This document shows, in pieces, positions 1,086 to 62,953 of a stretch of 64,000 nt of DNA. Numbering within the stretch: the first letter of the stretch is position 1; each line of letters starts with the position of its first letter. The stretch covers positions 62,001 through 126,000 of the forward strand of contig OY979725.1 of assembly GCA_963855995.1 (NCBI GenBank). The letters are read 5' to 3'. The notes beneath the pieces are model-generated. The model did no database searches. It was not told the DNA's origin and saw nothing but the letters and a program-made list of their open reading frames with translations. The position numbers and the translations under genes were made by a program. The DNA comes from Muricea muricata (Eukaryota > Cnidaria > Anthozoa > Malacalcyonacea > Plexauridae).

Positions 1086-1189
1086 CTGAACAGCCCCCAT
1101 GCCATCTGGATCAATAGAATACACACCACTCCGAGTTGTTCCAGTTAGTAACAATTCCAGGCAATCTTTAGGAATTGCATAATCAGGAT
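1086..1189 (-). CDS. Fibrinogen-related domain 3, first exon only
   Basis: A 104-base exon, phase 1-0, reading IPKDCLELLLTGTTRSGVYS and then IDPDGMGAVQ before a GTAATA donor. It matches the first exon of fibrinogen domain 2 in length class, phase and content. The rest of the domain is not in the window, so the gene runs off its left edge. Between here and position 1 lies a mariner remnant. Confidence 0.75.
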
Positions 1190-4100
1190 CTAGGACTCAA
1201 ATAATATTGTGAGGATTAGACATGAAGTTGTCAAAAGCACGATTTACAACACCTGTTCAAAACACGTAAAAAGGCAAAAGCTGTAAGAACCCAGAAAACA
1301 CAAGAGGTTGACAAGTTGTTTGCACTGCTCCTACTGCGTTGTAACAAGTCTGATTCTCTCGTAAAATTGTTCCAAGTTGTCAACAAGTTGTTTCAAACGT
1401 TCAAAAAGGCAATGAATTGGCAGAAATTTGACATAACAAAAACATTTTTATAAATTCCCTATGCAAAGTTACCAAACAAATTGACAATATGTTAGTTGTG
1501 ATTAGTACATTATTTTCCCTTGCCAAGCAAGTTATAAAACTAAATAATTGGACATTGTTTACGTTTGCTCACCTTTCTCACAAGGAAATGTTCTGGATTG
1601 CTCACAGCTCATGTCTTCCCACAGTCCTTCACTTTGTATTCCTGAGCACAACATTGCAGGCTCATCTGGCTCGTTTTGTTTCCACTTATTAAAATCAACG
1701 TGCGTGCCATCAACCCAAGAGAATATAGACGAATCATTGAGGCGTCTTGAACCTGAAAGTTATCAAATCACATTCATTTTCTTCAGGTATGCTTATACAC
1801 AAAATATGGTTAAAAAATTAATGCTCAAGGGAAAAGGTCCCCTCTACAGTCCTTCCTCTATGGTACGTTGAGAAAGAAAGTATCACCTCCCCCCCTCCAC
1901 ATACACACGAACATGACCCTGACTGCTCTAACACCCACCTAACCAAATACTATCCGGATACGAGCTGTTCGGTATAGAAGCATGAATGAATTCCTTCACT
2001 ACGTCTTGTTCCATTTGAGAAGATATTTTCACGAGATCGTAACCCAGATCACGACAGTATCCCTGAGCAGCCGCATTGCTCAATCTCTCAGCATTATAAA
2101 TATAACACTGGCCTTTGAAGCAGGATTTTCCTAAACAAATAGCACAACTCTATATAAAGGTAAATAATCACACAAAAGATTCTCTTTCACTACCCGAAAC
2201 GATAGAACACCATTCGTCGTTTCTGGCGAAGGCTCTTTTTCGTCGAGAAGTTAGCAGTAGAAACAAGGACTTGCGGTCGAAACGTAAAATTCTGTTTTAT
2301 CGTTATATACAGTGAAAGAACCTTCAGAGTATCTTTCGCAACCGTACACTTACACGACATCGTTAGTTCGATATATTATCTCGCATATAATTGCTGCAGA
2401 AAAGCACATACTTTCGGTTCTAAATTGGGGATACATGTATAGGTTATCATATGAGAGGCGAGGTGATATCAGTTTTATCGCTCGAGGAGCGATAAAACTG
2501 ATATTACCGAGTCCCGAATGTGATAACCTATTTATAACATACTTGTGCCTTTATCTAGAGCAAAATCAGATTATATTTTCAAATTATTTATACTTCGAGT
2601 ACATTTCAAAATGAATTCAAAATTATTGTTTAAAACACGCTAAACAGGTAGAAATTACAAAAACAAACCAAAAACTAACTTATCTTTTAATAGCTGCAAA
2701 TTTCTTTGTGTTATTTCCCTTGTATTATTTTATATTTTTTGCTCTATCGTCTACCGATTCAATGTCCTTCAGTCGGACGTCATCTTTGTTTTGAGCGAGA
2801 CAAAAAACGATATCGCGGGACAAAAAACGATATCACGGGACAAAAAATGATTTCACAGGACATACGTGTTATCGCCCAGATAAAGGCACAAGTATGTGAT
2901 AATTATCATTTATATACACGGAGCGAGGGGGATTCGGTGAAATATTTCCTGAAGTGCTGATATTTCCCGAGGGCTTTAGCCCGAGGGAAATATCATCACT
3001 GAAGGAAATATTTCACCGAATCCCCCTCGCTCCGGGTATATAAATGATATATTATACCGAAAATCAAAAACTTCCGTAAGAATAAACTTTTAAGTTCTTC
3101 AAGTTGAACATACCTTCGTGGATATGATGCCTAAAATACAAAATAGCCAGTTCTTTGTTTATTTTTTAACGAGAAGTACAGAAAATTCCTTTTAATTTTT
3201 TAAATATTTGTGTTTTCAACGTCCTTGTCCTCCAAAATACTTTATAATCCTTCGTGAAGTTCATCAAACTTTTCGCACATTCCGCCATTTTTGTTTATGA
3301 AAACTTGCCAATCTGTGCTTGCGTGTTCAAGCGTTGCCATGACAGCGTGAGATATTTACTGTATCTCACTTTAAAAGTGAGATACAGTGGTATCTCACTT
3401 TAAAAGTGAGATACAGTGAGAAATCACCTCATCACGTGGTAGAAATATGATATTTTGATTGGACAATTTGAATTTGAGGTATAATATTATCTGGTATTAA
3501 ATGATGTACATATGCAATAGCTCACTAGGCTTGCTGTGGGCTAGAATTGTTACGATAACTATTTACCTCTTTTACACAAAACATTTCTAGTTTCATTGCA
3601 ATTCTTAATCTTCCAGCTTCCATCCCTTTCTAAGACTGGGCAACCTGTATTCGAGTACGATGTTTCAAAGTTTTGAAATAAAACTTTGCTTCCGTCCGTC
3701 CAGACGGTGGAGTTACGCATTCCTGAAAAAACAATACAACGACAAAATACGTACCTCAAAAAATAAATCTTAGCTTTTTGATCACACAATTTATTATTTA
3801 AACCTAAGACAATATTACAAAACATCTTTAGCATGGCCGTAAGAACCACGGGGGCAGGGGGGGGGGGGGCTCGAGCCCCCTAACTTCAAAGGCAGGAGGG
3901 CTGAGCCCCCCTAAAAATGATCTTTGAGTCTCAAAGTAAATACACGTTTTAACGGTTTACAGTCTTACACATGTCTTAATCCAATGATTATGGTAACCCC
4001 GGCGAAAATTTGTTCATGAATTCATGAACTTTCATGCTCTGTTCTTCAAAAATTTTGCAGGCTGTTCATGAACAAGTTTTCATGAACTGTTCATAAAGCT

Positions 4101-7100
4101 CTTCATGAAATTTTGATGAACGTTTCATGAATAATCCATCAAATTTTCACCGGGGAAAACTAACCTCAAAAGTGCAGAAAAACATATTTGAGCATGCTAA
4201 GAATAGAAAAAGAATTCTGGGGGGTCCCCGCTCCCCCCTTGCAGCACATGCGTTGCACCTTCAGCGCTGGAAGAGCCCCCCTAACTTTTTTCATCTTCCT
4301 ACGGCCTTGAAGATAATGATTTATCTTACCCAGATGAACCTCATCAATATTTTCTTCAAGAAGTATTGTATTTGCAATATACTCGTTTTCACTTGCGCTG
4401 TGAATGGACACGAGATGTGCATAAAACGTGCGGCATTCTTCCTCTGCTGTTAACCAATGCCTCCTGCTCTTTAACAGATAGTAGCAAAAATTCTCGTTGC
4501 AGCTGACAACTACAAAAGAACAACAAAGAAAGTTTGCAAAAGAAAAAAAATGATAACATGCGAGAAAAGTTACAAATGACCTACCTTTGCTTGCTATACA
4601 TTTACTAACACAGAAAAAAGAATCATACTGCTCATGGGTGGACCTAGCACTACTAAAAAAAAGCTACTCCGACATCTTATAAACTCAAGATTCGAACGTT
4701 TAAAACAAAACAATTTTGACAATATTTAATTTCGACTCTATTACAAAGACGATGTCAAAATATCACCGCCAAATTGTTGTGCCGTTTTCAAACGCTCGAA
4801 TCTACAGTTTACAAGATGTTGTCTTTCGGAGAATGTTTTTCTGTGCTGTAACTTCCAGCAGTTCGTAATGCAAATTAATGCACTATAGTGGCTCTACGCG
4901 TGATATAGAGAGACCTACCGTATATTTCATCGAAAAAAAATGAATCCAAGAATACTAACCGCTCCTTGGTCGTATTTTTATTTCAACTCGGTTAAGAAAT
5001 TGATTGCTTGACCAATGATTAAACTTCATATTTCCTAAGGAATTCCCGGCTCCATATTCGCCATTTAAATTGCATGTTCCACAGTTCGCATGCCACCACC
5101 CACTTCCTCTTATTTTAGCGCAATTATCATCATCACGATTGTCATTATCTTTGTCATGGGTAGAGAATCTTTGCCCATTCTCCCAACGCAAACAATTACC
5201 TAAAACGGTAGAAATATATCACAGTTGCGAGCGAAGGTTGACGGTGCCAAACGCTTACCAATGCCTAAATCACCAGAGCTACATTGATAAAAGTAAAGTC
5301 AATAAAATTCAAGGATAGTTACCAACAGATTCCTGATATTCTGAAACGTGAGCTTGATATGCATCCTCTTCGTTGCTTATTTGAAATGATTTATACAGAA
5401 CAAATGCGTGATCACCATTAACCGAATTCACGTCAAGCAACAACTCGCGTTTGATAAGAGTAAGCCGATGAATGAAGTCATTCCCAAGCCAAAAATTGCG
5501 TTCAAGATCTCCAAATCCTTGTTTGTACGTGGCCCAGTCTCGCGCAAAACTTTCATTGGCATCAATACGCCTTTGAAACACAGTCCAACCTCCGCCATAA
5601 CTTTCTTGATCACAGTAAACCTAAAGAGAAGATTTCACGACAGTAAATAATTAACCAGGTACAAATTTCACTAAGGTACGTGGTGTTGGACCATTTTTTT
5701 GACTGATTATTAATCATTACCAACAAACGTTTGTATTCTTTCATAATCTCAAATAATGATATTTGGTTAGAAAATCAAACTTAAAGTTTGTATAAGCCAG
5801 GGCAAAATCTTTATCCCATTTACAGATATTGATTAAATATACCATTATTTTTTGTGTCTTCTTAATGAATCATTAATAAATTTATAACTATTTTCTTTAT
5901 ATCGAGTTTGGTTCTTGGACGCCAAAAGATAACATTTGTAGACTCGTAAAAACAACGCACAGGTTCGTACAAGTCTGCAAACGAGTTGATATGAATAAAT
6001 TGGTAGCATATCTTGTCCTATACATACCCTAATTGCACCATTTCCGTCAGGATCCATTGAATACTGGCCACTTTTTGTTTGTCCAGACAACAATAAGTCC
6101 AAACAACTCGTATAATCTACACAATACAAAACAATTGACGGTTATCAACAGGAGATACAATAAACAAGCGGGAAATTGTTGCAATGTAAATTATGATGAG
6201 TATTTCCTTCAATCGTACGTGAATATGTTGTGCAGTCTGTGTGTGTCCATAGCACCCCTAGAGTGTCTACATGTTCTCTGGTTATCACAGCTAGATATAT
6301 CACCTAATGTGATACAGTATACTACGTTTGTACTAACCATCCTTGCTTCAGCCAAAATACAATTACAATAGAGGGAGTTTAATCTGTCCCAGTCAAATGA
6401 TTTCTGAACGCACAGGGACCATTTTAGCGGCTGATATTCCAACTGTTAAAATTTCCTTGTAGAAAGAACCGATATTCCTATGCATAAAACCGGACATTCT
6501 GCAAAGCATCCACAACTCTTTTCCCACATAGTAGGGATCGAATTAACCCACATCTTAGAGGCGAAAGGCGTTAAGTTATCTTTCCTGTTAGTAGTAAGAT
6601 TCACCTGTATCCAGCTGTGCAGACTCAAAAATGATACCGCCTTGACGGAGGATTATTTACTTATCAAAATTACACATTAGATTACCTTCTGAAACAGTAA
6701 TAGTGCCAATTACGCGTTCGTTAGAAGTACTTGTACAATTACTGTACTCACTCTCTGCTACCTAAAAAATATTAAAGGTTAAATAAATTAAAGGACGAAG
6801 CAACAACTCAGTTAGGAATGTAAAAACAAAAGAACACCAATTTATTTTTCTAACTTCTATCACACAATTGCCCTACCAAATACATAAATTATTTAACTTT
6901 GAGACCAGTAATACTTTTATGCTCCGGTAACAAGAAGCATTTAATCTTAATTTATATAATCAACATACACAAACGTTACTTGAAACACTTGCAAGCATCA
7001 ACTGCTTGTCATTTTTACGATAATTCATCGTAGAATATTGAACTGAATCCATACTGTCCGAACTTACATATACTTTATGTACTCCAGGTATTATGGACGC

Positions 7101-10100
7101 CTGAACAGGGACATCAAAGTCATGGTACAAACAGTCGTAAGAAAAATGAGCAGCTAGGATGTGAACTTTATCAAACACACGAACGCATAAACTTTTCTTA
7201 CAACCAGGACATTCACAACTTTCGCAGTAACGGTATTTTCCTGGAAAAAATTACATCATTAACATAGTTGTTTCCAATATGACAATAATGATGATGATGA
7301 CAATATGTATCATGTACCTTTGACGTTAAAATCTTTTCCAGCAATAGCATTGTTGGTAAACACAACAAATTTTGGATTATCTAACAAAAGATGAAAACAT
7401 TGCTAATTTTACATTTTAATCATTTAATTCCCGCGAGAATGGATAGTTAATTATACGCACTGTAGACAGTATGTGATTAGTTATCATTTTACTCGTGTTA
7501 TCCTAAAACACATAAATACCTGGGTAGCAACCGTATATCTCAGCTCCCAAACATATACTATTAAGCCATGTCTTCACAACAAATCTTAAAGACAGCGCCA
7601 GGAAAGGCTTTTCAATCTTGTTACGAATAGGGGTACCTGGATTGACGTTGCCAAGGAATACCTAAAGAAAAAATGAACGCATCTTGTACCATTTCGGAAG
7701 ATCTAATATCATGTTCAATAACAGAGCATTGGCTGTAGAATTAGAGGAAGGAATATTATTGATAAGCTACAAACATTAATCTCTTTCTGCATCACAACCA
7801 GGAATTAGAAACTAGAATATTATTTTTATCGAAAACTTATTTCGATGACATTTCCATTTTCAAGTTCAAGAAGACACCACTATCAAGCAGCTCCTGTAAT
7901 TTTATCTCCTCTTCTTTATTCAAAAGTGAAATTACTAGTTAGAGATAACTCACCCTGTCATTCTCTCTTTCATACATGATCCACCTTCGCTTTCTATTTT
8001 TATACATGAGAGAATAAGTCTTGACAAAACACGGTAGATTGTTGTTCATGCATCCCTTAGTTGCAACGTTCGTCACTTTAACCATTTCCAGGAACTTCAC
8101 CTCTAGAAACTCGTCTGCTTTTGAGAATTCTGCACACCAGGTTATATCGTTGGAAAGCCGGCCAACAGCAGGAGGCGTCGAAGACTGCCATGATGATGCG
8201 TTTATCCTGTCATTTGATAGACGACCGCTGCTCATCCCCAATGGTGAACTACATGCTGCAAAATATTTACATGACAATAAACTTCACATAGAGGAGAGAA
8301 TGATAGCTATATGTCACAAATACATTTGCAAGCAGCTCTGTATGATCAGATAGCCTGGGGCAAGTTGCTCTTAGGCCTGGGTTAAATCGAAATTCAAAGC
8401 AAATTTCCATAAGAGCATACTGAAAACATGAGAATATTTTTTTTCATAAGTCTCGCCTGGATCCATCAAATGTTTTCTTTTCCCAAGTTCTAAAACTATG
8501 AGATGGATTGAAAAGAAAAAAAACAGTTTATGCTACTACAATTTATGCTACATCAGCTTTGAGCAACAGCCCCCTGGCTCTACGTCTACATTGAGATCAC
8601 CAAGCTGTACTCAAAATCTTTACAGAAATACAGCTCCATTCTTAATTAACAACTACCCCCACCCTCGTGGCTCTATGTCTATATTGAGATCAACAAGCTG
8701 TACTCAAAATCTTTACAGAAATACAGCTCCATTCTTAATTAACAACTGCCCCCACCCTCGTGGCTCTATGTTTATATTGAGATCAACAAACTGTACTCAC
8801 AATCTTCACAGAAGTACAGCTCCATTCGTAATGAACAACTACTACTGCTGCAGGAAACAAGGTTCAAACGCATTCTTCTGAAAAGTCCAAAATCATAAAG
8901 ACAATTTGAAACAGTGTCCAGTTCATTTGCTAGAGTGCGTTCATTATTTCCTTCAAATATCTAAAATTGAAATTGACAATAATAAAAAAAACTTGCTTAA
9001 AATCAATACCACCACGAATGTTGCCCGCTAACCTTTAACTGACCATCCTCCTCGTAATCCTTCCAAAAATCACTTTCATCGTAAAGCGTGACAAAGAACT
9101 CTTTGACATAATTTAAATCTGATCCTCCTTGAGTCGCAAAATGTGAGATACGCCTGGACTTAAAAAAATCGATCTCTAAGTAGTAGCCTAAAAAATGAGT
9201 TACAAACACGCCTGTTAGCGAAATAATAATTATAAATTGTTTTACATTGATAAGAATGTGAACGTCAAGGCGATAGCCACAATATTCATTTATTTCAGTC
9301 AGTTTTCAAAACTAAAAAATTTCAAACTTACCCAAATCCTCCACAATCCAGTACTTTGAAGGAACGTTTAGTCTTGCTTGATAGTCTTCATGACCAGAAA
9401 CTTTGTTTGGGCTATTGTTAAAGATCTGCTTCCACTTGATCATCGCGTCTTCCATGCCAAACCGCCCAGTATGACCTAGAATAGAGTGACAATTATCGTC
9501 GAGCAGGATAATGCTAAGAAATATTCATATAAAAGAAGGTAAAAGAGGACAGTTTATAACCCTGATGATGAAAGATCTTTCAAGTCTGTGTTGTGAAAGG
9601 TCTGCCATCCCGTCCAATGATGTAAAAGCTGCTAAGACTTGCATCATTAACAAACGTAGTATGTCAGGCGTGGAAAAACCCAATTAAAATCCCAGGTCAG
9701 GCAAAAGTTGAATATGTGTGGGTGAAGAGGAGGTGAAGTCACACACAACAAGGATGAACAAAAATCAATATGCATGAAGTGATGAAGTAGGTACTCGTGA
9801 GCGACGTTGTGCAATTAAGAAAAAGGAAATGAATAAGCTGGTAAAATAGTGAACAAGAGAAAAGACTGATGTCTTAAATTTCAACTGATTGTCCAGGAGT
9901 GGAGTCATATAATAAATCCTAGATACATACCTATCCCACCGGAGCGCAGCATCATTTTAGTTCCTTTTAAGCTCTCTGTACTTGTCCAAGAATTCCAAAA
10001 TACACTATCAAGTTGAAACTCTGCTGTAGGGTAGTATTTTCCGTTTAAATTGGAGATAACGTAATCAGGATACCACCAAGCACCATGACGATCTCGAGCA

Positions 10101-31100: not shown

Positions 31101-34100
31101 AGCCCTTAAAAAATACGAAAACAACAGCAATTTCGTAAAAATACGGCAAATTTCCCCCGAAAGTATTTCCTTCATTTTAATATTTTAATACATTCAATTT
31201 CCCACAGGACCTAACCTTTGGCGTTCAACATTTCAACTCGTAAAACTGAATGAGGTCAGCTTTACTCCCCTAGATATAATTTGATTTATAGTTCAATGTC
31301 TTACCTTAGTGGTACCGCGGTATGCGTAGTCGTAAAAGTCAACACCATCATTGCCATACGAAAGATAATAACTTTTTACCCATTGTTCGTGCTCATGATT
31401 TCCCCATCGACCCTGGGTCAAAATCTGCACAACTTTAGTAAAACGATTGAAGGCTATTTGCAACCATTGATTTTCTCCGTGAGCAACCCAACACGTGCCA
31501 GCTTGCCAATTTAATCTAGCATTGTTTGGCCCAAAAGGATCTCCGTGATTGAAAGAGTCTGAGATTTGAGCGCTCACGATCCTCCCATCCTGCATTCCGA
31601 GCGGTTGTGGATTTGCACATTCTGCAAGTTAAACCAACTGACTGATTTTATCATTCTTGGGCTGTTGGCTTATGGTCTGGTTAGCGGTAATAGTAACCTA
31701 TTTTTTTAGCTTTTGTATTTTGAAATCAAAAGTACGGCTGATTCAAACAACATTCATGAAGAAATATTTCCTAGGTTAAAAATCAATGGGCAGCGCCCAT
31801 TGAGATAACAAGAAATACTTTATCCTAGTGTCGCTATCTGAAATGTTTTCTGATATCACCAATTTGTTTGCTGCAGTGTCACGAATTATAGCATATTTGG
31901 ACAAGGTATTCAATTACAGTTGATGTTTATTGGATAGCATCACCACAAAAATCCACGTTCTTCAACATTCTAGAAGAATGCACTATCCATTAAGGTATTG
32001 AAGAATCAGTGGTGGGCAACTGGGACGTAACTAGGGCGCGGGGGGACTCCCTCCTTTTGTTGATACGTCCGTGGATAGCAAACAGGCGAAACCCACATAA
32101 TGCCCTGGCTAACCGTCGAATCCTTAACAGCTTGGTGTTTACAGAATTTTTTGGAACTTGGAAGGTCCCACTTGAAGCACACGATTTTTCTGACCGTCCT
32201 CTGATGTTATCCACTACACAGCAACTCTAATTGTGTATGTTTCAAATTATCATCATATTGTAAGATACCTTTGTAATAACCAACAAGCTCCAAGCGCAAA
32301 GCAGCATGTCCTTGCCAGGTTTCTGCGTAAATTCGAACAAAACGAGCCACAATTGGTTGAGTAAGTGGGTTACTAACCACAGAATAAGCATCAAAATTTC
32401 CAGAGAAAACCTTAAAATGCAAAAGAAGTTACGGCTGAAAAATTGAAATAGAATGACTGTAGTATACTATATGAACCATCCAGCAGCGTGTTTTCAGGGA
32501 CCTTAAAACAGCCCAGAAAAACTCAATCTTGAGTTTAGAAATTATACTTTCCCTCCAAAATTTCAGTATAGTTAAAATGAATAAAATTCGTCACGGGTAG
32601 GGATTATTTTTCAGTCGGAAACCCGAAAATTAAGGCTGGAAATTATTTCACAAGACAAGAAAAACTACGAATTATAGTGACAACCGTATACAATAACCAG
32701 GACGTGCTCTTTTTATTTCAAATAATATTATACCCCCCTGTCTCAACTACTTTTAGGGGGCAGACACCTGTGACTCGCTGCCCCACAATGATACTCGCTT
32801 GAGAAACCCTGTAATGTCTTTATTTTCTGGCGCTGTTATCAACATAGGCCTACACTCGTTGTAAAAATAAGGAACGGCATCTGATTCTCACACGTCAGAT
32901 ATATAAAAAGCTCGATTCTTACAGCAAGTTTGAAGCATGCAGGCTTCTCCTGGCGAGAGGAATTTGCAGAATAAGGAATGCGACTCTTATGCTTTAGTTC
33001 AGAGGTAATGTTTACCAGAACCAGTCCATTGTTATCTGTTCATGCACATCTGTTCATGTTCACGCATGCCTCGATCGTTACTTATGATTTTTTCTAGTGG
33101 TTTTCTGCAGTTTGTCATATTGTTATCAAACCAAAACGAGAACCTGTTATCTAAAAATACTCTAGTTACTGTGGTTCTACATTCTACAACTTCCACCCTC
33201 CCTCAAATGCCCCTGTCCTCGTATCAAACCATACCTTCGTCACACCATCTACGCGATAATCCTGCAGGAACTCGCTCTCGTATCCATATTTTACCGTGTA
33301 CGTTTTAATACACCAAAATGTTGACGCATAGTTTGGGCTGCCTTGTGTCCTGATTTCAACAATCGTAGCCATTAGAATCAAATCCACTTGCATCCATTTG
33401 GGCCCAGCGCCTTGTGCCATCCATCCAGCTTTTGTAATATGTTCATAGTTCAATCTGCCGTTGTTTAGCCTCCAATTTGGATGGCTTGAGGAAGCATTCA
33501 GCTGAGTCTCTGTTATTTCATAATTTTGCATACCAAGAGGTTTTGAACGACGATAACCTAGGGTGATTGGAAAATCAGCGTAATTTTTATACCTAATAAC
33601 TGACCCCTAATCGATTTAACCTGAATCTGTGTTTCAATTCAAACCCTAATCCAAATACTTTAATCTAAACCAGATAATCAAAGCCCGAATCATATCTCTA
33701 TCAAACTCTAATCCGCACCAGAATGATGATTCTTTCAAAACTCTACTCCAAACCCGAATCGTGACACGACCTGAACATTATGTCAAATACAAAGCCGAAT
33801 CCTAAAAGAGGTTTCCAAGACATATGTTGGTAGTAACTGTTTACCTTCGTCTCCGGAATAACAACCAATAAACTCCACCCTCAGTGCACGATATCCCACA
33901 TAATCCACTGGATGGAGGCGAACAAAACGAGCTACAACTGCGGGTGATAAGAAATTGCTCGCAATGATATCAGCATCCCAGTTTGCTTTGAATAGCTATG
34001 TGTAAATAATATTTAAAGAACAATTTATTTAACAACATACAATTACATTTCAGGTTCCTGAAGGGAGTGGAGGTGGTCCTAATCCTATCGACTATATTCT

Positions 34101-37100
34101 ATTCTTTAAGTGCATAAATCCAGTACTGGCGGCTATCTTGCTGAGATAGCCTGCTGCTATCCACTGGCTGGGTAGTGATTTTTTATCCTGTCTTAAAAAT
34201 GCTTTTAAATGCAATAAAACTTTAAAATGCTAAACACTAGATTTGACCATTCCAGTAAATCAACAATTTTAGGACGTTTGAAAAAGTCGCTATCCGGTGG
34301 ATAACTTTATCCACCTTTCGTACAACCGGCCCCTGAAATCTTAAGGCTATGAATCCCGGTCGCTGTGTACGGAATTCCATTTTCCCAGAAAAAAAAACTA
34401 GGCAATTCGTAGCACAGTCCAGCGTTGCTGGGATGTGGGGCTCTATGAAAAAATTAACACCTAAAGTTATCACAATATTGTAGCCTTCACGAAGCCTTTG
34501 ACTTTTTTCCTAACGTATAGGAAACGTTGTTTCCCATAGTGTTATGTCATGCTTCCAAGTGCAGCAAACTGGGAAACGTTTTTGACAGAGACCTTAACTT
34601 GCGTGAACCTTAAAGGCCACCGGAATCGGAACCATTGACGTTTGTGTCCCACGCATGTTGCATTACGCGTGTTCATTGTGCAGGCTATGGTCAGTCAATT
34701 GCATTTTCTGGTGAATACCAACGCTGAACTGGCTATTCCACCACCATTCCGACCAGTCAATTGCGTAAAAATAAGGGGGCTTGTTGGATTGCAGAGTAAC
34801 CCAACTGTTCATTCTCTATACTATGGCAAAAACTTCGATCAAACTCATTTTCAATTGTTCGCTACAACTGTATCATTGTTAATTGTTAGAAATTGATTGT
34901 TTTTACAGACCACTAACTCGGAAAAATCAACATGCTGCAGAATTATACAAACTGATCAAAGCTAAACCAACCTTATCTACTCCATTTGCAGCATAAAATT
35001 GAAAGTCTATTCCGTTTCCTCCATGAGAAACTTTGTATTTTGTGACCCGCCAGTTACCGTAACCTTGGGTCTGAATTCCAGTCAGAACAACAATCCACAG
35101 AAAATCGACTTGCAACCAGGACGAGCTCTCAGCATTCGAGGGAATCCAACAAAGAAACGGAGGTTTGACGTTAAGTCTTCCATTCTGAGCGAGATAATAC
35201 CCAGAGCTGTGGGTAGAAGATGATGACATTTGGGAATCCAAAATTCGAAAACTTTCCACACCTAAGACTCGTGGAGCGACGCATTCTATATAAAAAACCC
35301 CACAGAGAATTATAAGCCTGCTGAATTTGGCACACAAGTAGGTGGGTGGGTGGGTTCACCGGGTTTAATTTTGTGAGTAGAGTCTCTGTTTAGACCTGCA
35401 TGAAGTAAGAGGCACATGTGGTGCAAGTGTACCCTTTGCTCTGCTCACTTAGTTTTCAGTTCTGGCGGAACTGCGGTACCTTTGACACCGCATCCACAAA
35501 CTAGTACTGCAATTTTATCGAGTTAAAGTTGAGGATAAAAAGGTCGAGCAAGAAATGTTCACATGAAAGAGCAAATCCTGTCAAAGCTACAATAGATTCT
35601 GCTCATTCATGTAATTAGATAGGTTTGGAAAATCTGATTAAACCATGAAATGCGTTATAAGTCTGTGATAGAAAGTCTAACTGAAGCCCACTCAGAGGGG
35701 GGGGGAGGGTTCTTGACATCTTTTTTCAGTCGTTTTTGCTTGACACCCGCGATGCATTCTGGTAAAATGCTACCATCGTTCTCGTTACTGACTTACCATC
35801 TTCCCACGCTTGTACATATACTTCACAGAAAGTGAGGACTTCCTGTAGACGAGACACTATGGCCACATATCTTCCTCTCAAAGGTTGTTTACAAAAAATC
35901 GCACGAGTTGCTCCTTCATCAACACCTTGCCGCCCATCACACGTGGCGCCTCTTTCCTCTACAACCTTTTCACTTGGACTCACAAATATTTCAAAGTCTT
36001 TCAAGCGCCCTCCTCCCGTAGCCCTGTTTGTCACCGCAACTGCGTAAACGAGGGAGTTTTTGCCTAAATCCACTTTCCACCAGTGAAATGTTGGTGATGC
36101 AGAGGTATGTGTACATGTTAATGATTGTTGTGAAGTGTCTCTATTACCATCGACAGCTCTAGCAGCAACACGACCAAATCCAGTTCCATAATATTGTTTC
36201 GCTGGCTGTTGTAGGGCGTAGTTAACTACAAGAACGAAAACATTCAAACACTCTGTGCAGTTGGCCTCCACAAAAACCCACGAAACTTGATGTTTGCTTG
36301 CCATGCAATATTGCAATATTACTGTGCAGGTTACTCGCAGGAATTTGCAATCGCTTTGACAAGATGCTAGAGTTAATAGTGTGGTTTTAAAGCAGGGCTC
36401 AAATCAGTACAGACAGGCTTATGGTTTCTTTCTAAAACCTCGTCTGTTATGTCATGCAATTATACCAGTTGTGGTAATGACTTAGATCATTTAAATTCCT
36501 TATCATATTATACGTCATTATACGTGATATAAGTCTCTTACATGCTCAAAATCTTCTTGTATTGCTATAGTTACAATTAAGTTTGGATAACACTGTCAGA
36601 ACAAGTTCACACCTTCATGGTCAAAAAATTCCATTTCCCTTCCATGGACTTTAACCTCGCACAATGATAATCGTTTTTGTACTCCAGGAAGAACAATTTT
36701 GACTCCTGTCACTTCTTGCGGAGATTGACATAGATAGTTCTTTGTCTCGCCGTTGCTGGACAGCACTCCAGCTGTACAGAGAGTGGTTAACTCAACTGTA
36801 TCTTTTTTAAGTTTGATTTCAAAGTAATCAGAATACGGCCAGTAAGGATCAGCCCTGCTGGTTATTGTCGCCGAGGTTATGTAGATTTCATCCTGAAATT
36901 GCACCTCCCAGTATACGTCATCTCCGAGTTCTGTTTCAGAGCAACTGTTGTTTCCAAAATAAGGGTTAGAGTTGCCGTCTGTAAGTCGCGAGGCATCGCC
37001 ACTTTTTGATGTACTACTTTGGCTTGCCGTTCGTCCCAAAGCAAAGTTTTCTTAAAAAGATTCGTTAATAGCTCATTAAGAAAAGACAAAGGAAATGTCA

Positions 37101-37329
37101 TATGTACAAACATAAGTTGTGCTGCAAACATATGGGCGCAAACGTTTCATTGCTGAAGCAATTTTGGTAAAGGTCTGGTCGGAATATTTAAATGTTTTGA
37201 ACTATGTTACTCAATGTAACAAATATTACTTGTAAGATCGGCGCCATATCGGTCTTGGCACTTGTCCTCTTCCAACACTGAACAGCTGCGTACGAGAACA
37301 AGGACAAGCAACATCGCTTTTACAGCCAT
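1086..37329 (-). CDS. Giant modular secreted lectin gene (or tandem cluster), continues past the window start
   Basis: About 45 exons on the minus strand, read from 37,329 downwards, encode one run of extracellular modules: signal peptide, two F-type-lectin-like domains, discoidin domains, an ILEI-like domain, C-type lectin domains and fibrinogen-related domains. The exons join in frame from the signal peptide to 3,567, apart from one unresolved junction near 23,740, and give roughly 2,780 residues. Most module borders are phase-1 introns, and discoidin domains are split by an inner phase-0 intron, as expected for exon shuffling. Only one signal peptide was seen, which favours a single gene. 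Against this, an in-frame stop follows the C-type lectin exon at 3,559, and the C-type lectin and fibrinogen exons at 1,086-2,130 could belong to a second gene. No membrane segment was seen. A secreted recognition protein is inferred from the domains. Confidence 0.5.
1573..2130 (-). CDS. C-type lectin domain 3, two exons
   Basis: Exons 1,939-2,130 (CFKGQCYIYNAERLSN, YCRDLGYDLVKISSQME, SIWLG) and 1,573-1,752 (FSWVDGTHVDFNKWKQ, EPD, WEDMSCEQSRTFPCEKG), both phase 1-1. Layout and intron position equal those of C-type lectin domain 2. EPD replaces EPN, and W-E-D replaces WND, giving a partial calcium site. It precedes the fibrinogen exon at 1,086-1,189. Confidence 0.82.
2438..2533. repeat. Foldback hairpin
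   Basis: A near-perfect palindrome whose arms carry ATAGGTTATCA at the outside and GTTTTATCGCTC / GAGCGATAAAAC at the centre near 2,485. It lies in an intron of the modular lectin gene and is part of a nested foldback cluster that runs to about 3,420. Confidence 0.75.
2549..2897. repeat. Inverted repeat pair bounding a 350-bp segment
   Basis: The 20-mer ACATACTTGTGCCTTTATCT at 2,549-2,568 recurs inverted at 2,878-2,897. Its right arm touches the next hairpin. Between the arms is a short tandem GGGACAAAAAACGATATC-type repeat near 2,800-2,850. Confidence 0.65.
2905..3048. repeat. Foldback hairpin with arms of about 70 bp
   Basis: The arms run from ATCATTTATATAC and GGAGCGAGGGGGATTCGG on the left to the mirror CCGAATCCCCCTCGCTCC and GTATATAAATGAT on the right. 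The centre is CCGAGGGCTTTAGCCCGAGG near 2,977. Likely a MITE or half of a larger foldback element. Confidence 0.75.
3357..3420. repeat. Tandem pair of a perfect palindrome
   Basis: The palindromic unit GTATCTCACTTTAAAAGTGAGATAC occurs twice head to tail. Each unit can fold alone and the two can also pair with each other. Confidence 0.8.
3559..4509 (-). CDS. C-type lectin domain 2, two exons; possible gene end
   Basis: Exons 4,330-4,509 (CNENFCYYLLKSRRHWL, ECRTFYAHLVSIHSA) and 3,567-3,722 (HLGMRNSTVWTDGSKVLF, GCPVLERDGSWKIKNC, NVLCKRG). Four core cysteines and the WTDGS turn are present, but there is no EPN or QPD and no WND, so calcium-dependent sugar binding is unlikely. The last exon either splices at GTAAATAG (phase 1) or reads two more bases into K and stop at 3,559-3,561. 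In the second case the modular gene ends here. Confidence 0.8.
3996..4155. repeat. MITE with CCCCGG ends
   Basis: The inverted ends CCCCGGCGAAAATTTG and CAAATTTTCACCGGGG enclose about 160 bp rich in TTCATGAA and its variants. The left half matches short stretches inside the repeat field at 14,395-14,450 and 14,695-14,755 (TTTGTTCATGAAGTCATGAA), so the family has several copies here. G-rich tracts at 3,850-3,920 and 4,215-4,285 flank it. Confidence 0.7.
4960..6116 (-). CDS. Fibrinogen-related domain 2, three exons
   Basis: Exons 6,028-6,116, 5,323-5,620 and 4,960-5,199, phases 1-0, 0-1 and 1-1. The full globe is present: TSCLDLLLSGQTKSGQYSMD, VYCDQESYGGGWTVFQRR, FGDLERNFWLGNDFIHRLT, the calcium loop DKDNDNRDDDNCA, GSGWWHANC, NLNGEYG and an end at IKIRPRSG. 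Both disulphide pairs and the acidic calcium loop are intact, unlike domain 1. Fibrinogen-related proteins in invertebrates are often innate-immune lectins binding acetylated sugars; that role is inferred. Confidence 0.9.
6686..7380 (-). CDS. Unrecognised cysteine-containing module, three exons
   Basis: Exons 7,318-7,380 (phase 1-1), 7,068-7,240 (1-0) and 6,686-6,761 (0-1) give about 104 residues between discoidin domain 9 and a fibrinogen domain. It begins DNPKFVVFTNNAIAGKDF, has a dense cysteine patch YCESCECPGCKKSLC, then DKVHILAAHFSYDCLYHDF, a short strand HKVYVAESEYSNC, and ends GTITVSEG. Splice sites and frames are good. I do not recognise the domain; alternating hydrophobic strands suggest a small disulphide-linked beta fold. 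Confidence 0.6.
7520..8255 (-). CDS. F5/8-type C (discoidin) domain 9, two exons
   Basis: Exons 7,954-8,255 and 7,520-7,661, phases 1-0 and 0-1. First half: CSSPLGMSSGRLSNDRINAS, FLEVKFLEMVKVTNVATKG; second half: VFLGNVNPGTP, FLALSLRFVVKTWL, CLGAEIYGCYP. The start and end cysteines are present. The second exon resembles the last exon of domain 6 (VFPGNAN, PFLARSLR), suggesting that the two modules are copies. Confidence 0.85.
8575..8845. repeat. Three tandem 93-bp units that include the end of a coding exon
   Basis: TGGCTCTA recurs at 8,575, 8,668 and 8,761, a constant 93-bp period. The third unit contains the 3' end and splice donor of the last exon of discoidin domain 8 (minus strand, donor at 8,799-8,800). 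The two other units repeat the exon end (ATGGAGCTGTA-TTCTGTAAAGAT) inside the intron, but with TTGAGT in place of the GTGAGT donor. Confidence 0.85.
8801..9475 (-). CDS. F5/8-type C (discoidin) domain 8, three exons
   Basis: Exons 9,332-9,475 (GRFGMEDAMIKWKQI), 9,033-9,187 (YYLEIDFFKSRRISHFATQG) and 8,801-8,960 (IFEGNNERTL, FRRMRLNLVSCSSSSCSLR). Phases are 1-1, 1-0 and 0-1. The intron pattern equals that of domain 6. The end of the last exon, with its GTGAGT donor, has been duplicated twice into the following intron (see the tandem repeat at 8,575-8,845). Confidence 0.8.
9931..10560 (-). CDS. Fibrinogen-related domain 1, single exon
   Basis: A 210-codon exon, phase 1/1, covering the full fibrinogen C-terminal globe: QDCLGVLMSGRTTDGVY, FPVYCDQTTDGGGWSVFQRR, IGFGDLLQEHWLGNENI, then GAWWYPDYVISNLNGKY and a final MMLRSG. 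The first disulphide pair is present. The second pair is absent: the usual CA...C next to the calcium loop reads TARDRHGAWWYPDY. The acidic DxDND calcium loop is replaced by MDKGLMS. This copy probably lacks the normal calcium-dependent ligand pocket. Confidence 0.88.
10828..10890 (-). CDS. 21-codon linker exon
   Basis: A phase-1/1 exon bounded by ATTTTAG and AAAG/GTGCTG, reading GEERDYDQTRFQKVAV and on into the fibrinogen module. It has the same length and phase as the linker at 7,318-7,380, which also sits between a discoidin domain and the path to a fibrinogen domain. Support rests on splice sites and frame only. Confidence 0.5.
11094..12180 (-). CDS. F5/8-type C (discoidin) domain 7, two exons
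   Basis: Exons 11,849-12,180 and 11,094-11,241, phases 1-0 and 0-1. First half: IEPIGMEADFIPDSS, RPYLQVDLAEISSICGV, YSVLLSNDSFNW; second half: VFKANEDRNS, REFVAQFVKMDFLSW, LCVRLELFSC. The match to vertebrate-like discoidin (NDSFNWTFV) is good. It is followed by a 63-base linker exon. Confidence 0.85.
12636..12692. repeat. Degenerate GATAC microsatellite
   Basis: About ten copies of ACGATACGAT-type pentamers in the intron 20 bases beyond the donor of C-type lectin exon 12,712-13,098. Confidence 0.8.
12712..13098 (-). CDS. C-type lectin domain 1, single exon, mannose-type
   Basis: A 129-codon phase-1/1 exon holding a whole C-type lectin fold: a WNDARRYCEAIRADLAVI helix region, FHVGLARHPDN, FRWVDGSPLVFAKW, then the EPN tripeptide, NEQC, and YNDIDC near the end. 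EPN plus Glu plus Asn-Asp completes the calcium site 2 that prefers mannose-type sugars. The usual Trp of WND is a Tyr. Of the three C-type lectin domains here it is the only one with a complete site, so it is the best candidate for real calcium-dependent sugar binding. Confidence 0.88.
13217..13400. repeat. Foldback MITE
   Basis: The arms contain CAACCTTTGCATTTTGCAT and, inverted, ATGCAAAATGCAAAGGTT, with outer TTTCTATGTGCTACC and its mirror near 13,370-13,390. Length is about 184 bp; it lies in an intron. Confidence 0.7.
13597..15190. repeat. 181-bp satellite with an inserted A/T-rich homopolymer field
   Basis: The unit GATTGGCAAAGCAGACAGAG recurs at 13,849, 14,030 and 14,211, a 181-bp period; further divergent units lie at 13,597-13,850 and 14,850-15,190. 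Between 14,370 and 14,850 the array is broken by two copies of a block starting ACGATAAGCAATCCCTGG and continuing as AAATTTTGGGAAAAA-like simple sequence. The open frames seen here (PNFFSNFF-type) are artefacts of that repetition. Confidence 0.85.
15759..15971 (-). CDS. Unassigned 71-codon exon, perhaps part of a LamG/pentraxin-like jelly roll
   Basis: A phase-1/1 exon that reads cleanly between good splice sites (ATTTTAG acceptor, AGAG/GTAATT donor) directly after the ILEI-like domain. It contains two cysteines nine residues apart (KCDVNSTDC) followed by ISLAMWMKND, which resembles the 'FTVSFWMK' strand of concanavalin-like jelly rolls. One exon is too short for the whole fold, and no continuation was found in the repeat-rich 2.6 kb before the next exon. 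It may be a remnant or a linker. Confidence 0.5.
16334..17472 (-). CDS. ILEI/FAM3-like (PANDER fold) domain, three exons
   Basis: Exons 17,393-17,472, 16,831-17,018 and 16,334-16,524, phases 1-0, 0-2 and 2-1. The order of elements matches the ILEI family (FAM3C, and parts of POMGNT1, CEMIP and TMEM2): GTVFNKEGAVV, then GPGYNIVVANHITGEF, an acidic-aromatic 'substitute for FDT' stretch, SDHSVVVIATQGVNEL, a helix DETLQLLESIGA, and a WILVGYKGKQQVSW strand. In this family the fold binds sugars or acts as a secreted ligand. Its position between discoidin and C-type lectin domains is unusual. The assignment is from memory of the family and is quite sure at the fold level; the function is not known. 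Confidence 0.72.
17577..18502 (-). CDS. F5/8-type C (discoidin) domain 6, three exons
   Basis: Exons 18,317-18,502 (ASVGIEEGIIMDDQLNSS, YEGRLNF, LFLQVDFF), 17,850-17,971 (VHALTTQGKF, VSQYKVSS) and 17,577-17,715 (VFPGNANCHC, PFLARSLRVLPETW, CMRIEVYGAY). Phases are 1-1, 1-0 and 0-1. The extra inner intron after the LQVDF strand is also present in domain 8. It directly precedes the ILEI-like domain. Confidence 0.82.
18641..18908. repeat. MITE, about 268 bp
   Basis: Inverted ends of about 33 bp: CATTGATATATATACATCTG and GACTGCC at the left, and the mirror GGCAGTCCAGATGTATTTAT at the right. It lies in the intron between discoidin domains 5 and 6. Confidence 0.75.
18909..21048. other. Intronic stretch without recognised features
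   Basis: Lies between a MITE and the Harbinger remnant, inside the intron that separates discoidin domains 5 and 6. Short frames on both strands show no family resemblance, no consistent splice sites and no repeats that I could pair. Confidence 0.5.
21049..21876 (+). mobile_element. PIF/Harbinger element with internal deletion
   Basis: The ends GACCCCGTTCACACGA and TCGTGTGAACGGGGTC are inverted and flanked by TTA on both sides (21,046-21,048 and 21,877-21,879), the target duplication typical of PIF/Harbinger. From about 21,457 a plus-strand frame reads the start of a HARBI1-like transposase: RRRFSTRPGRTSSWW, EEWRENFRLSKTTFNKLC, ELRPFLQKK and DVKTRLAITLYYL. After that it runs into unrelated sequence and the right end, so the catalytic part is deleted. 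Confidence 0.82.
21966..23211 (-). CDS. F5/8-type C (discoidin) domain 5, four exons
   Basis: Exons 23,145-23,211 (GDYADVEKRITASSWLD), 22,806-22,896 (GVISGNPDSTSWTPA), 22,451-22,600 (VDLVQPTPLAGVELRG) and 21,966-22,089 (ILARFVRFTIASW). Phases are 1-2, 2-0, 0-0 and 0-1, and the frame is continuous through all four. The ITASSW and GV..VEL elements and the final RFVRF strand identify the fold. It is divided more finely than the other discoidin modules, so it probably has a separate origin rather than being a copy of its neighbours. An alternative 5' acceptor for the first exon exists about 18 bases upstream. Confidence 0.75.
23735..23955 (-). CDS. Unassigned exon between discoidin domains 4 and 5
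   Basis: After a good acceptor (pyrimidine tract then CTAG), a phase-1 frame stays open for about 73 codons to a stop at 23,735. It has three cysteines near its start (HCLTCP, LPC) and no domain I recognise. Several weak donors lie inside (GTGAGA, GTTTGG, GTAATC, GTAAAT), none clearly best. Either it splices on to the discoidin exon at 23,211 or the first gene ends here with the sequence VNPPD and stop. This is the one unresolved joint in the modular gene. Confidence 0.4.
24098..24884 (-). CDS. F5/8-type C (discoidin) domain 4, two exons
   Basis: Exons 24,541-24,884 (phase 1-0) and 24,098-24,236 (phase 0-1). Hallmarks are KALGMENFQIANPQLSASS, ENQWLQVDFLRTVKVTG, the VFSGNTDQNS start of the second exon, RLLRVQAKTWMGHIALR, and an end at FFGFEG. 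The closing cysteine is replaced by Phe in this copy, while the opening SCENV cysteine remains. Confidence 0.85.
24885..25982. other. Intronic stretch; one unexplained minus-strand frame
   Basis: A minus-strand frame of 143 codons (25,478-25,909) contains TITVDFSQSN, KQCVAMLWYD and a hydrophobic tail. It lacks splice support and is not recognised. It may be a piece of a transposase. The rest holds nothing visible. Confidence 0.3.
25983..27615 (+). mobile_element. TTAA-flanked element with long inverted ends carrying a dead P2RX7_C-like frame
   Basis: TTAAAGTGTATATGCAA at 25,983 and its mirror TTGCATATACACTTTAA ending at 27,615 bound 1,633 bp; TTAA at both ends is the target site of piggyBac-type elements. 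Inversion resumes further in: ATGCAGTGTGACACAGCGC near 26,187 and GCGCTGTGTCACACTGCAT near 27,401, so the ends are similar over roughly 220 bp. No transposase is visible, so it is a non-autonomous element or a captured gene. Confidence 0.65.
26288..26665 (+). pseudogene. P2RX7_C-like domain pseudogene inside the TTAA element
   Basis: One reading frame of 126 codons runs from ATG 26,288 to TGA 26,663-26,665, with two in-frame stops (TAG 26,402 and TAA 26,498). It begins acidic (MSDSESFESQTDTEQ), has YQFEP, and then a SCTCGHC...EYRCCKEILEC pattern. That pattern is typical of the P2X7-receptor C-terminal (P2RX7_C) domains that occur in hundreds of copies in cnidarian and other invertebrate genomes. 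The frame is otherwise intact, suggesting recent decay. Confidence 0.6.
28479..29372. mobile_element. Non-autonomous element with inverted ends
   Basis: CTGGAACGATAACT at the left and AGTTATCGTTCCAG at the right, with further inverted similarity inside (GAAGCCAAATTGAAGG and TTCAAATTTGGCTTC), enclose about 890 bp with no coding frame. A 19-bp direct repeat (CGATAGTCTATGATGAAAC) lies just outside, at about 28,438 and 29,509. Confidence 0.55.
29698..29925. repeat. Foldback MITE, about 228 bp
   Basis: Nearly the whole element is a palindrome: GGTCATGGCTTTATAGGATA with CCCTAAAGGT at the left and the mirror at the right; inner arms GGTTTCTCACTCAC and ACCAAATTTAGCTAAA close on a GCGCGTAGCGCG centre. 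Confidence 0.8.
30075..30360 (+). repeat. Homopurine tract
   Basis: About 285 bases made almost only of A and G on the plus strand (GGAAAAGAAGGG-like). The frames read on both strands here are composition artefacts. It lies in the 5.9-kb intron between discoidin domains 3 and 4. Confidence 0.8.
30630..30775. repeat. Dispersed repeat fragment, GGGCCGGTTGTA family, copy 1
   Basis: Starts CAGGGCCGGTTGTAAAAAAG and ends CACTATCCGGTGG; the same two boxes, in reverse order, occur at 34,270-34,340. Confidence 0.6.
30783..31621 (-). CDS. F5/8-type C (discoidin) domain 3, two exons
   Basis: Exons 31,305-31,621 and 30,783-30,933, phases 1-0 and 0-1. The first exon reads ECANPQPLGMQDGRI, ENQWLQIAF and QILTQGRWG; the second reads IFDGNSNKNSVV, VARYIRIYPRTW and ALTVEFIGCY. 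Both terminal cysteines are present. The next exon of the gene lies almost 6 kb away, at 24,884. Confidence 0.85.
32269..33557 (-). CDS. F5/8-type C (discoidin) domain 2, two exons
   Basis: Exons 33,235-33,557 and 32,269-32,410, phases 1-0 and 0-1. Visible hallmarks are PLGMQNYEITETQLNASS, WMQVDLILMATIVEIRTQG, and in the second half VFSGNFDAYS, VARFVRIYAETW and HAALRLELVGYY. The edge cysteines usual at the start and end of the domain are absent (GYRRSKPLG and LVGYYKG), unlike its neighbours. Confidence 0.85.
33845..35285 (-). CDS. F5/8-type C (discoidin) domain 1, two exons
   Basis: Exons 34,972-35,285 (phase 1 in, 0 out) and 33,845-33,995 (0 in, 1 out). The first half carries a Leu-Gly-Val-Glu start, the SSWLQVDF strand and TGIQTQG; the second carries VVARFVRLHP, YRALRVEFIGC and a final cysteine. 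The two cysteines that close the discoidin fold are present (ECVAPR and FIGCYS). This two-exon split with a phase-0 inner intron recurs in most discoidin modules here. The ligand is unknown; the family binds phospholipids, glycans or collagen. Confidence 0.85.
34250..34345. repeat. Dispersed repeat fragment, GGGCCGGTTGTA family, copy 2
   Basis: The minus strand reads GGGGCCGGTTGTACGAAAGG, GTGGATAA, GTTATCCACCGGATAGCG. This is the inverted relative of the copy at 30,630-30,775. It lies in the intron inside discoidin domain 1. Confidence 0.6.
34625..34810. repeat. Dispersed repeat shared with 50,625-50,800, copy 1
   Basis: The blocks GTTTGTGTCC, GCATTACGC, CAATTGCATTTTCTGG and CCAGTCAATTGCGTAA recur in the same order and orientation in an intron of BTBD7, about 16 kb away. 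The family is unidentified. Confidence 0.65.
35797..36225 (-). CDS. F-type lectin (fucolectin)-like domain 2
   Basis: A 429-base exon, phase 1/1. It starts VNYALQQPA, holds ARAVDGNRDT and a WWKVDLG strand, and ends LTFCEVYVQAWED, all usual for the fucolectin fold. A His lies about 28 residues before an Arg, close to the sugar-site spacing, but the Arg is followed by A-T rather than x-D. This is a second degenerate sugar motif. The two tandem copies are divergent, so the duplication is not recent. Confidence 0.8.
36613..37050 (-). CDS. F-type lectin (fucolectin)-like domain 1
   Basis: A single phase-1/1 exon of 438 bases. It opens with the family signature NFALGRTASQSST, continues with a DGN element and conserved cysteines, and ends with a LSLCEVKVHG strand typical of fucolectin/tachylectin-4/pentraxin-1 (FTP) domains. 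F-type lectins bind L-fucose through a conserved His and an R-x-D-x4-R/K motif. Here RAD is present, but no His lies at the expected distance upstream and the final basic residue is a Tyr. Fucose binding may therefore be lost or altered. Confidence 0.8.
37230..37329 (-). CDS. First coding exon: signal peptide
   Basis: The ATG at 37,329-37,327 opens a 33-codon exon with a short basic start (MAVKAM) and a hydrophobic LLVLVLV core, then a cysteine-containing stretch (DKCQDRYGADLT). This is a classical secretion signal. The exon ends in phase 1 at a GTAATA donor. A good acceptor (pyrimidine tract, then CTCAG) lies about 20 bases upstream of the ATG, so a 5' UTR intron is likely. Confidence 0.75.
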
Positions 37330-44209: not shown

Positions 44210-44597
44210 TCTTCAGTTCCAACAAACCTGTAAACAACGAGTATGTGCACGTTTTTGATTTGTGATAACAACTTGAGCGAAATTTTCATTTACTTGACAA
44301 CAAAACGCGCGAGAAAAGCCTCACTCAAAATATCCTAAGAACTCCCAAGATTATCCCTTCTTCTCTAACTTGTCCCTCACTTTCCTGCTCTTCCCAACCA
44401 CTGAGCTATATACCCCAGTGTCCCCAACTCTTTGTCGACACGTGGTCGATAAAATTAGCATAAAATGCAAAATAGCACAGCTCCGGAAATATACCATGGA
44501 AACGTTTCACAACACAAACATTTTAAAAGATTCATTTAATTTTAAGCGGATCAATATTTTGACTCTGACGAGCAGTTGCTCGTTTTGATTTGAAACA
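44210..44597. promoter_or_regulatory. Shared intergenic space of two divergent genes, candidate bidirectional promoter
   Basis: Only 388 bases separate the start codons of the C7orf57-like gene (minus) and the PP2D1-like gene (plus). Both transcription starts and 5' UTRs must lie here or overlap. No clear TATA box was seen. Confidence 0.5.

Positions 44598-62845: not shown

Positions 62846-62953
<108 letters not shown>

Follow-up and report, generated by a model that had tools for sequence, protein, structure and literature searches.

The window, the whole stretch of 64,000 nucleotides that we analysed (G000:C10:62001-126000), carries on its minus strand a long series of lectin-type exons (Table 1). 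A chain of 39 exons, built by hand from position 37,329 to position 1,086, encodes 2,746 amino acids without a stop, and all of its junctions are in phase. From the 5' end, the signal peptide is followed by a pair of F-type-lectin-like modules, a run of six discoidins, one ILEI module and exon X1; next come a C-type lectin, a discoidin, a fibrinogen-related module, two discoidins, a second fibrinogen-related module, another pair of C-type lectins and the beginning of a third fibrinogen-related module. The totals for the window are thus 9 discoidin, 3 C-type lectin, 3 fibrinogen (the final one truncated by the window edge), 2 F-type-lectin-like and 1 ILEI module. An earlier note on this DNA had proposed a single in-frame lectin chain of about 40 exons with a signal peptide and five folds, and the chain and its Pfam and PDB matches agree with that proposal. 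In the Pfam domain search that the note had suggested as a check, the modules matched their families, D8 falling just below the cut-off.

Table 1. Lectin-type modules and accompanying exons of the window, in 5' to 3' order of the gene (window coordinates).
Feature	Coordinates	Exons	Strand	Matches and remarks
Exon 1, start codon and signal peptide (MAVKAMLLVLVLVRSCSV...)	37230..37329		-	most hydrophobic among candidates listed; cleavage site deduced
F-type-lectin-like module 1 (FTP1)	36613..37050		-	PDB FBP32 E 6.7e-20; PF22633/PF00754; paralog copies
F-type-lectin-like module 2 (FTP2)	35797..36225		-	PDB FBP32 E 2.5e-27; eel lectin 1k12 4e-13
Discoidin D1	33845..35285	35285-34972, 33995-33845	-	PF00754 2.6e-17
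Discoidin D2	32269..33557	33557-33235, 32410-32269	-	PF00754 9.4e-15
Discoidin D3	30783..31621	31621-31305, 30933-30783	-	PF00754 4.9e-22; PDB factor V/VIII, neuropilin
Discoidin D4	24098..24884	24884-24541, 24236-24098	-	PF00754 5.1e-21
Discoidin D5	21966..23211	23211-23145, 22896-22806, 22600-22451, 22089-21966	-	PF00754 6.1e-12; same 4 exons in both paralogs
Discoidin D6	17577..18502	18502-18317, 17971-17850, 17715-17577	-	PF00754 2.8e-12; copies 55-60% identical
ILEI/FAM3-like	16334..17472	17472-17393, 17018-16831, 16524-16334	-	PF15711 4.1e-14; FAM3C 2e-4
Exon X1, unnamed domain after ILEI	15759..15971		-	also in P13 (40%, E 4e-13) and P1 (33%, E 5e-5)
C-type lectin CL1	12712..13098		-	PF00059 8.7e-16
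Discoidin D7	11094..12180	12180-11849, 11241-11094	-	PF00754 4.6e-19
Fibrinogen-related FR1	9931..10560	single exon	-	PF00147 2e-49
Discoidin D8	8801..9475	9475-9332, 9187-9033, 8960-8801	-	PF00754 7.9e-6, under gathering score
Discoidin D9	7520..8255	8255-7954, 7661-7520	-	PF00754 5.9e-14
Module Y, unnamed domain, 104 aa	6686..7380	7380-7318, 7240-7068, 6761-6686	-	paralog matches, splice phases
Fibrinogen-related FR2	4960..6116	6116-6028, 5620-5323, 5199-4960	-	PF00147 3.3e-54; ficolin-2 5.5e-43
C-type lectin CL2	3567..4509	4509-4330, 3722-3567	-	PF00059 3.6e-14
C-type lectin CL3	1573..2130	2130-1939, 1752-1573	-	PF00059 1.7e-15
First exon of FR3 (fibrinogen-related)	1086..1189		-	gene continues past window edge

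Codon usage was nearly uninformative for gene finding (mean log-odds about 0.1), which is why we located the exons through homology and splice sites, with E-values and splice scores that derive from simple models. Splice scores were weak at some junctions of the window model, and the phase 1 donor of exon 1 had a weak score of -0.6. This exon has a counterpart in P1, one of two paralogs of the gene (see below), where a similar signal-peptide exon shares the motif C-x-D-x-x-GADL (E 0.003). Profiles made from the window's own modules gave, within the window but outside 1,071-37,051, a best match of only E 0.41, and a Pfam scan of the introns 30,782-24,885, 21,965-18,503 and 16,333-13,099 and of the stretch 37,330-40,000 revealed no additional module. 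A candidate linker exon near 10,890-10,820 (GEERDYDQTRFQKVAVPVSFK) was excluded, as it has no good match in the paralogs. The neighbours in the window are ordinary: a PP2C phosphatase (44589-46130, plus strand), a BTB protein (47502-48593, plus strand) and an exon of a rhodopsin-type GPCR (54102-55736, minus strand). A mismatch-free run of 50 TA units occupies 62852-62951.

The first 39-exon model had missed module Y, which lies in the 7,519-6,117 intron between D9 and FR2. It is a conserved cysteine-bearing domain (KYRYCESCECPGCKKSLCVRVF...) whose middle exon is 62% identical in P1 (E 1e-27) and 60% identical in the second paralog, P13 (E 3.6e-22); its splice phases close the exon chain and the frame stays open once it is spliced in. 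With module Y, the window part of the gene comprises 42 exons and 2,850 amino acids without a stop. Exon X1 has no Pfam match. The intron between X1 and CL1 is largely filled by a 181-bp repeat (3.8 copies) and by AAAAATTTGG-type repeats (13679-14363 and 14445-14848), and measures only about 134 bp in P13. As for D8, its second and third exons are present in both paralogs and its first one (D8a) was found in neither. A 93-bp tandem repeat (8575-8842, 2.9 copies, 93% matches) spans the end of D8c and its donor and runs into the intron, so that part of the end of this exon seems to be duplicated.

Introns interrupt the window model in phase 1 at 19 of its 19 module borders, and because all of these borders share the same phase, border phase alone cannot decide between one gene and several. 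The earlier note had singled out three junctions; all three are indeed in phase 1, but position 23,145, given there as the start of the exon that follows 24,098, is the end of that exon, which starts at 23,211. FR2 is followed by a stop at 4,957 and by an ATTAAA at 4,730. We rejected FR2 as a natural C-terminus, since a stop one codon past its phase 1 GTTAGT donor is inherent to that donor; reading on at the borders meets a stop within 9 codons in 13 of 19 cases.

We then looked at the folds and at their binding-site residues. The three C-type lectin modules of the window all exceed the Lectin_C cut-off in Pfam, both fibrinogen modules tested (FR1 and FR2) match Fibrinogen_C, as do FR3 and FR4 in a genome search, and the ILEI module reaches 53.3 bits with PF15711 (gathering score 27). 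Eight of the nine discoidin modules lie above the gathering score of F5_F8_type_C (PF00754), D8 having 26.5 bits against 28.2. Kinship with the F-type lectin fold is indicated by PDB matches of both FTP modules to the fucolectin FBP32 and of FTP2 also to the eel lectin. The fucose motif of F-type lectins is given as H-X24-R-X-D-X4-(R/K) in PMC5712786. In our alignment, FTP1 has neither the His nor the final basic residue of this motif. FTP2 retains three basic positions of the fucose site, the His among them, but departs from the full motif in the acidic residue and in the spacing.

In C-type lectins, Ca2+ and sugar are bound through EPN or QPD, plus WND. CL1 carries EPN and YND in the window copy, with KPD and EPS in the paralogs; the CL3 motif reads EPD, EPG or QPV across the copies, and CL2 has none. 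CL4 and CL5, which lie beyond the window, were called solely by our own profile, CL5 weakly. FR2 retains the cysteines and acidic residues of ficolin-2, and FR1 is without the second cysteine pair. In several modules the canonical sugar motifs are thus only partly present, and they vary from copy to copy, so that the "sites for different sugars" announced in the earlier note are borne out only in part. Altogether, the folds are evident, the binding sites less so, and the pattern of divergence does not prove sugar binding.

The position 1,086, which had been taken as the 3' end of the gene, is the window edge: the frame continues, and the gene runs on to about G000:C10:46774. Past the edge come the rest of FR3, CL4, CL5, FR4, a LamG-like exon, a MAM domain, an EGF-like exon, a laminin-G (LamG) domain, nine FN3 domains and a channel. 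The LamG-like and EGF-like exons are our own reading, Pfam finding no LamG family in the former, and the number of about nine FN3 domains is our own count from open frames; the MAM and laminin-G domains were identified downstream of the lectin array. One further unnamed exon, before the FN3 series, has no Pfam match and makes up, with X1 and Y, the stretches of the whole gene that could be assigned to no nameable family. The joined model of the window copy has 69 exons, no stop and no phase break, the three exons of module Y coming in addition, and encodes about 5,371 amino acids, an approximate value as its boundaries differ from those of the hand model at a few exons (e.g. I1 and D8b). Over the whole gene we counted 21 lectin-type modules (2 F-type-like, 9 discoidin, 1 ILEI, 5 C-type lectin and 4 fibrinogen).

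The final exons encode two hydrophobic helices on either side of FWWAYVTMTTVGFGDKT; after some 150 further residues comes another helix, and the protein closes with a basic tail. The layout is thus S1 - M1 - pore loop - M2 - S2 - M3 - basic tail. Hydropathy peaks above 1.6 in the window copy correspond to the signal peptide and to three segments of the channel part near the C-terminus; P13 and P1 each show one extra peak (1.61), at a long distance before the channel. The protein had been described as secreted, a description at odds with the three transmembrane segments into which its frame runs on. Past the end of the channel, at window coordinates -16633 to -17016 (G000:C10:44984-45367), we read another FN3-like open frame that probably belongs to the next gene.

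The selectivity filter reads TTVGFGD in the window copy and TTVGYGD in P13 and P1. The pore of the window copy scores 46.3 bits with PF07885 (cut-off 22.5) and 50.6 bits with PF00520 (cut-off 25), Ion_trans and Ion_trans_2 match six of the six aligned channel members (E up to 1), and Kv channels match in the PDB. Lig_chan matches five of these six members at E up to 1, the best at 1.2e-7, but its score for the window copy, 26.4 bits, is below the gathering cut-off of 30.8, and the locus is not among the 19 matches of a Lig_chan genome search. Aligned with GluA2, the pore gave P 4.6e-4 and a probability of 33%. S1 and S2 have no Pfam match; in hhalign against GluA2 each gave less than 1%, within shuffled controls (up to 7.2%), and their sole match among PDB profiles was a weak one to the amino-acid-binding protein AncQR (E 0.13). 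A glutamate-receptor-type binding domain formed by S1 and S2 was thus not established in four tests, with no match in Pfam and GluA2 scores within controls. Hydropathy and the order of the parts give the topology S1 - M1 - P - M2 - S2 - M3. The modelled channel would therefore have the topology of an ionotropic glutamate receptor, although we do not file it as one, and its pore resembles those of K+ channels. Classical K+ channels (Kv, Kir, K2P) have a cytosolic N-terminus and a pore loop that enters from outside. Here, in contrast, a signal peptide and thousands of extracellular-type residues precede M1 in the predicted topology.

The ILEI module was found at three loci only in the genome, all on contig C10: the window, P1 (1.18-1.24 Mb) and P13 (13.18-13.23 Mb). 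Both paralogs show the same module order on one strand, from the F-type modules through the last channel exon, apart from exons that were not found. When 69 query exons were searched as a chain, 68 were placed in P13 and 67 in P1, or 67 and 66 once the placements that were spurious by position (signal peptide in P13, tail exon in P1) had been removed; this search found D8a in neither paralog, no CL5b in P1 and no signal-peptide exon in P13. The splice model of P13 has 67 exons and 5,128 amino acids, leaving out the signal peptide, the tail exon and two additional FN3 domains that this copy possesses, and that of P1 has 69 exons and 5,075 amino acids without the tail exon. Neither contains a stop or a phase break; a simplified rerun of the chain gave one phase break in P1. 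Junction phase is equal at 65 of the 67 junctions common to at least two models, the discordant ones being FR3-CL4 in P1 and the border beside the missing D8a. The whole-gene exon chain scored 277 in the window copy, whereas chains from randomly frame-shifted anchors averaged 159 and never exceeded 193 (60 trials). The paralogs are the fairer test, because the window anchors came from our own exon model, and they scored 274 and 253, compared with frame-shift maxima of 192 and 195 (60 trials each).

At 36 of the 37 module borders, the shortest intron across the copies does not exceed 611 bp (lengths were estimated from match ends, and the SP-FTP1, FR1-D8 and CL5-FR4 borders rest on fewer than three copies). 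The exception is D9-FR2, with 1,403 bp, and this intron contains the conserved three-exon module Y. Introns this short would hardly accommodate a gene end, a promoter and a new signal-peptide exon. The best match in P13 is the module at the same position for 36 of the 37 window modules, and that in P1 for 31 of 37; across the six comparisons between copies these position-specific best matches range from 31 to 36 of 37. Since modules match by position and not by neighbour, the array must be older than the copies. A recent tandem duplication of modules was rejected, the nine discoidin modules being only 15-42% identical. Identity between copies is 59-63% in the channel, 42-65% in FN3, 27-60% in the lectin-type modules, 31-42% in LamG and 21-35% in X1, a pattern that fits what would be expected of a conserved output combined with a changing set of ligands.

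Further copies of the channel are present in the genome. Its first exon gave 15 full or near-full-length matches, 12 of them on one 13.9-Mb contig (G000:C10), plus two fragments. FN3 or fibrinogen matches lie upstream, within 8 kb on the same strand, at a minimum of ten of these 15 loci, namely the three large copies and seven others whose upstream regions are known from matches alone. We examined the pore region of five more copies. In two of them the parts could be joined into a legible filter, in which TTVG is followed by YGD, with one doubtful residue at the join in one case; for the other three the two halves were not both found in the stretch examined. At 314-352 kb and 534-540 kb of G000:C10, fibrinogen matches stand about 5 kb upstream of a channel, perhaps a short form of the receptor. 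Genome-wide, discoidin gave at least 153 matches and fibrinogen at least 156, and clusters of such exons also occur on contigs without channel matches (for example C8, C12 and C15 for discoidin, C1 and C5 for fibrinogen).

Taken together, these results make it probable that the window holds the 5' half of a single gene, encoding a giant receptor-channel with a recognition ectodomain. The protein would likely lie in the membrane with its N-terminus outside and its C-terminus inside, like bacterial GluR0, and form a K+-selective tetramer. The array, carried on the FN3 stalk, would probably sense glycans or other ligands on surfaces as a long multivalent structure, and its binding residues, and with them perhaps its specificity, would probably vary from copy to copy. 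It is possible, although we hold this with some reserve, that ligand binding, or tension on the tethered array, opens or closes the pore; with the same reserve, contact with a microbe, a symbiont, prey, matrix or a neighbouring cell might change the membrane potential. More tentatively, the protein may define an animal receptor class of its own, a K+ channel that is either lectin-gated or else tethered by lectins and gated by force, and that would turn recognition of cell-surface glycans into hyperpolarisation within one molecule. In such a channel the pore subunit itself would carry the FN3 stalk and the 21 lectin-type modules, which belong to five folds, and the paralogs would differ in their binding loops.

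The main alternative as regards function is that the ectodomain serves above all as a mechanical tether or an adhesive anchor, by which the channel would be positioned or stretched, with recognition of sugars in second place. Nine discoidin and nine FN3 modules, amounting to thousands of residues, would provide a suitable length, and the sugar motifs vary between copies. Nectin has six discoidin domains and works in adhesion (PMC10057474), and the pedal disc of sea anemones upregulates an EGF-like repeat/discoidin I-like protein with five galactose-binding-like domains (PMC6626399). We consider a mainly mechanical role less likely, however, as the variety of lectin folds and the divergence of binding loops suggest changing ligands and not a passive rope.

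Much less probable is a block of neighbouring genes, duplicated as a unit, in which the FN3-channel part would be a gene of its own beside at least one gene for a secreted lectin. Such duplication would likewise preserve the order, and the uniform phase 1 of the window borders cannot prove that the parts are joined. Signal-peptide-like start codons do occur on the minus strand of the window (six: two in exon 1, two in D2a, one out of frame in FTP2 and one at 19,792), but their number is uninformative because the plus-strand control gave four. Two weak signal-peptide-like frames lie in introns, that at 19,792 in the D5-D6 intron of the window and another in the D9-FR2 intron of P1; the latter has no counterpart in the corresponding intron of the window or of P13. 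Moreover, each border is too short in at least one copy for a gene end and a new start, the long D9-FR2 intron holds conserved coding exons, and the intron between FN3 and the channel measures only 419, 346 and 358 bp in the three copies. The "two or three adjacent genes" of the earlier note, as well as secretion, are thus unlikely, because frame, order and short introns continue into the channel and modules match by position. Its other suggestion, a single polypeptide of many lectin-type modules, is upheld by the order kept in three copies, the concordant phases and the short introns.

The giant soluble multi-specific pattern receptor that the earlier note favoured is very improbable. A signal peptide and lectin modules are present, and alternative ends inside the gene are possible, as at the stop and ATTAAA that follow FR2, but conserved order and frame reach the three transmembrane segments. 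Finally, a decaying or artefactual locus, to which the low score of D8, the cysteine pair lost from FR1 and the repeats within several introns might point, is scarcely credible, since open frames and phases persist in three diverged copies, with most modules 27-63% identical, which implies long purifying selection.

If the reading as a receptor-channel is correct, recognition of glycans or surfaces and electrical signalling would be joined in one polypeptide, channels with a K+ filter and a GluR0-like topology would exist in an animal as a family, and the protein would be a testable candidate for sensing contact with microbes, symbionts, prey or the animal's own kind. It also suggests that some "immune lectin" modules in such genomes may belong to channels. 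The discharge of stinging cells is tuned by as yet unidentified sugar receptors, for which the protein would be a candidate if the animal is a cnidarian. We know of no channel with such a glycan-recognition array on its own subunit. The architecture was likewise not found in titles or abstract openings of the open-access literature, for the most part looked for before the channel part was recognised.

Several known systems share part of this design. Polycystin-1 and related receptor-channels also couple a giant ectodomain, in which a C-type lectin domain may occur, to a channel part in the membrane; polycystin-1 has 11 transmembrane segments and GAIN/PLAT domains. The present gene differs in its modules, in its pore class and in having three transmembrane segments rather than 11, and no Pfam family of polycystin type (GAIN/PLAT) was found in the stretches scanned. 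The closest likeness in topology is to GluR0-type receptors, which have an extracellular N-terminus followed by M1, a K+-filter pore loop, M2, an extracellular segment and M3, as predicted here; the rotifer receptor with a K+ filter is called AvGluR1. GluR0 is a bacterial glutamate receptor with a K+ filter (PMC2950845, PMC12226733), a combination that a 2010 paper reports to have found in bacteria only (PMC2950845), and reference titles point to a K+-filter glutamate receptor in a rotifer (PMC12226733). What sets the present gene apart from these is the lack of a ligand-binding domain detectable by Pfam, the giant lectin/FN3 ectodomain and the 15 copies of the channel exon in the genome. In mosaic F-type lectins such as Drosophila CG9095, F-type domains occur together with C-type lectin domains within a membrane protein (PMC5712786), but the modules are far fewer, and the accessible part of that paper does not mention an ion channel. 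Nectin, with its tandem discoidin domains (PMC10057474), and the sea-star protein Sfp1, a very large multidomain protein of 3,853 amino acids (PMC9382459), are both adhesive and secreted, and no channel is described for either in the accessible parts of these papers, whereas the frame of the present gene ends in a channel.
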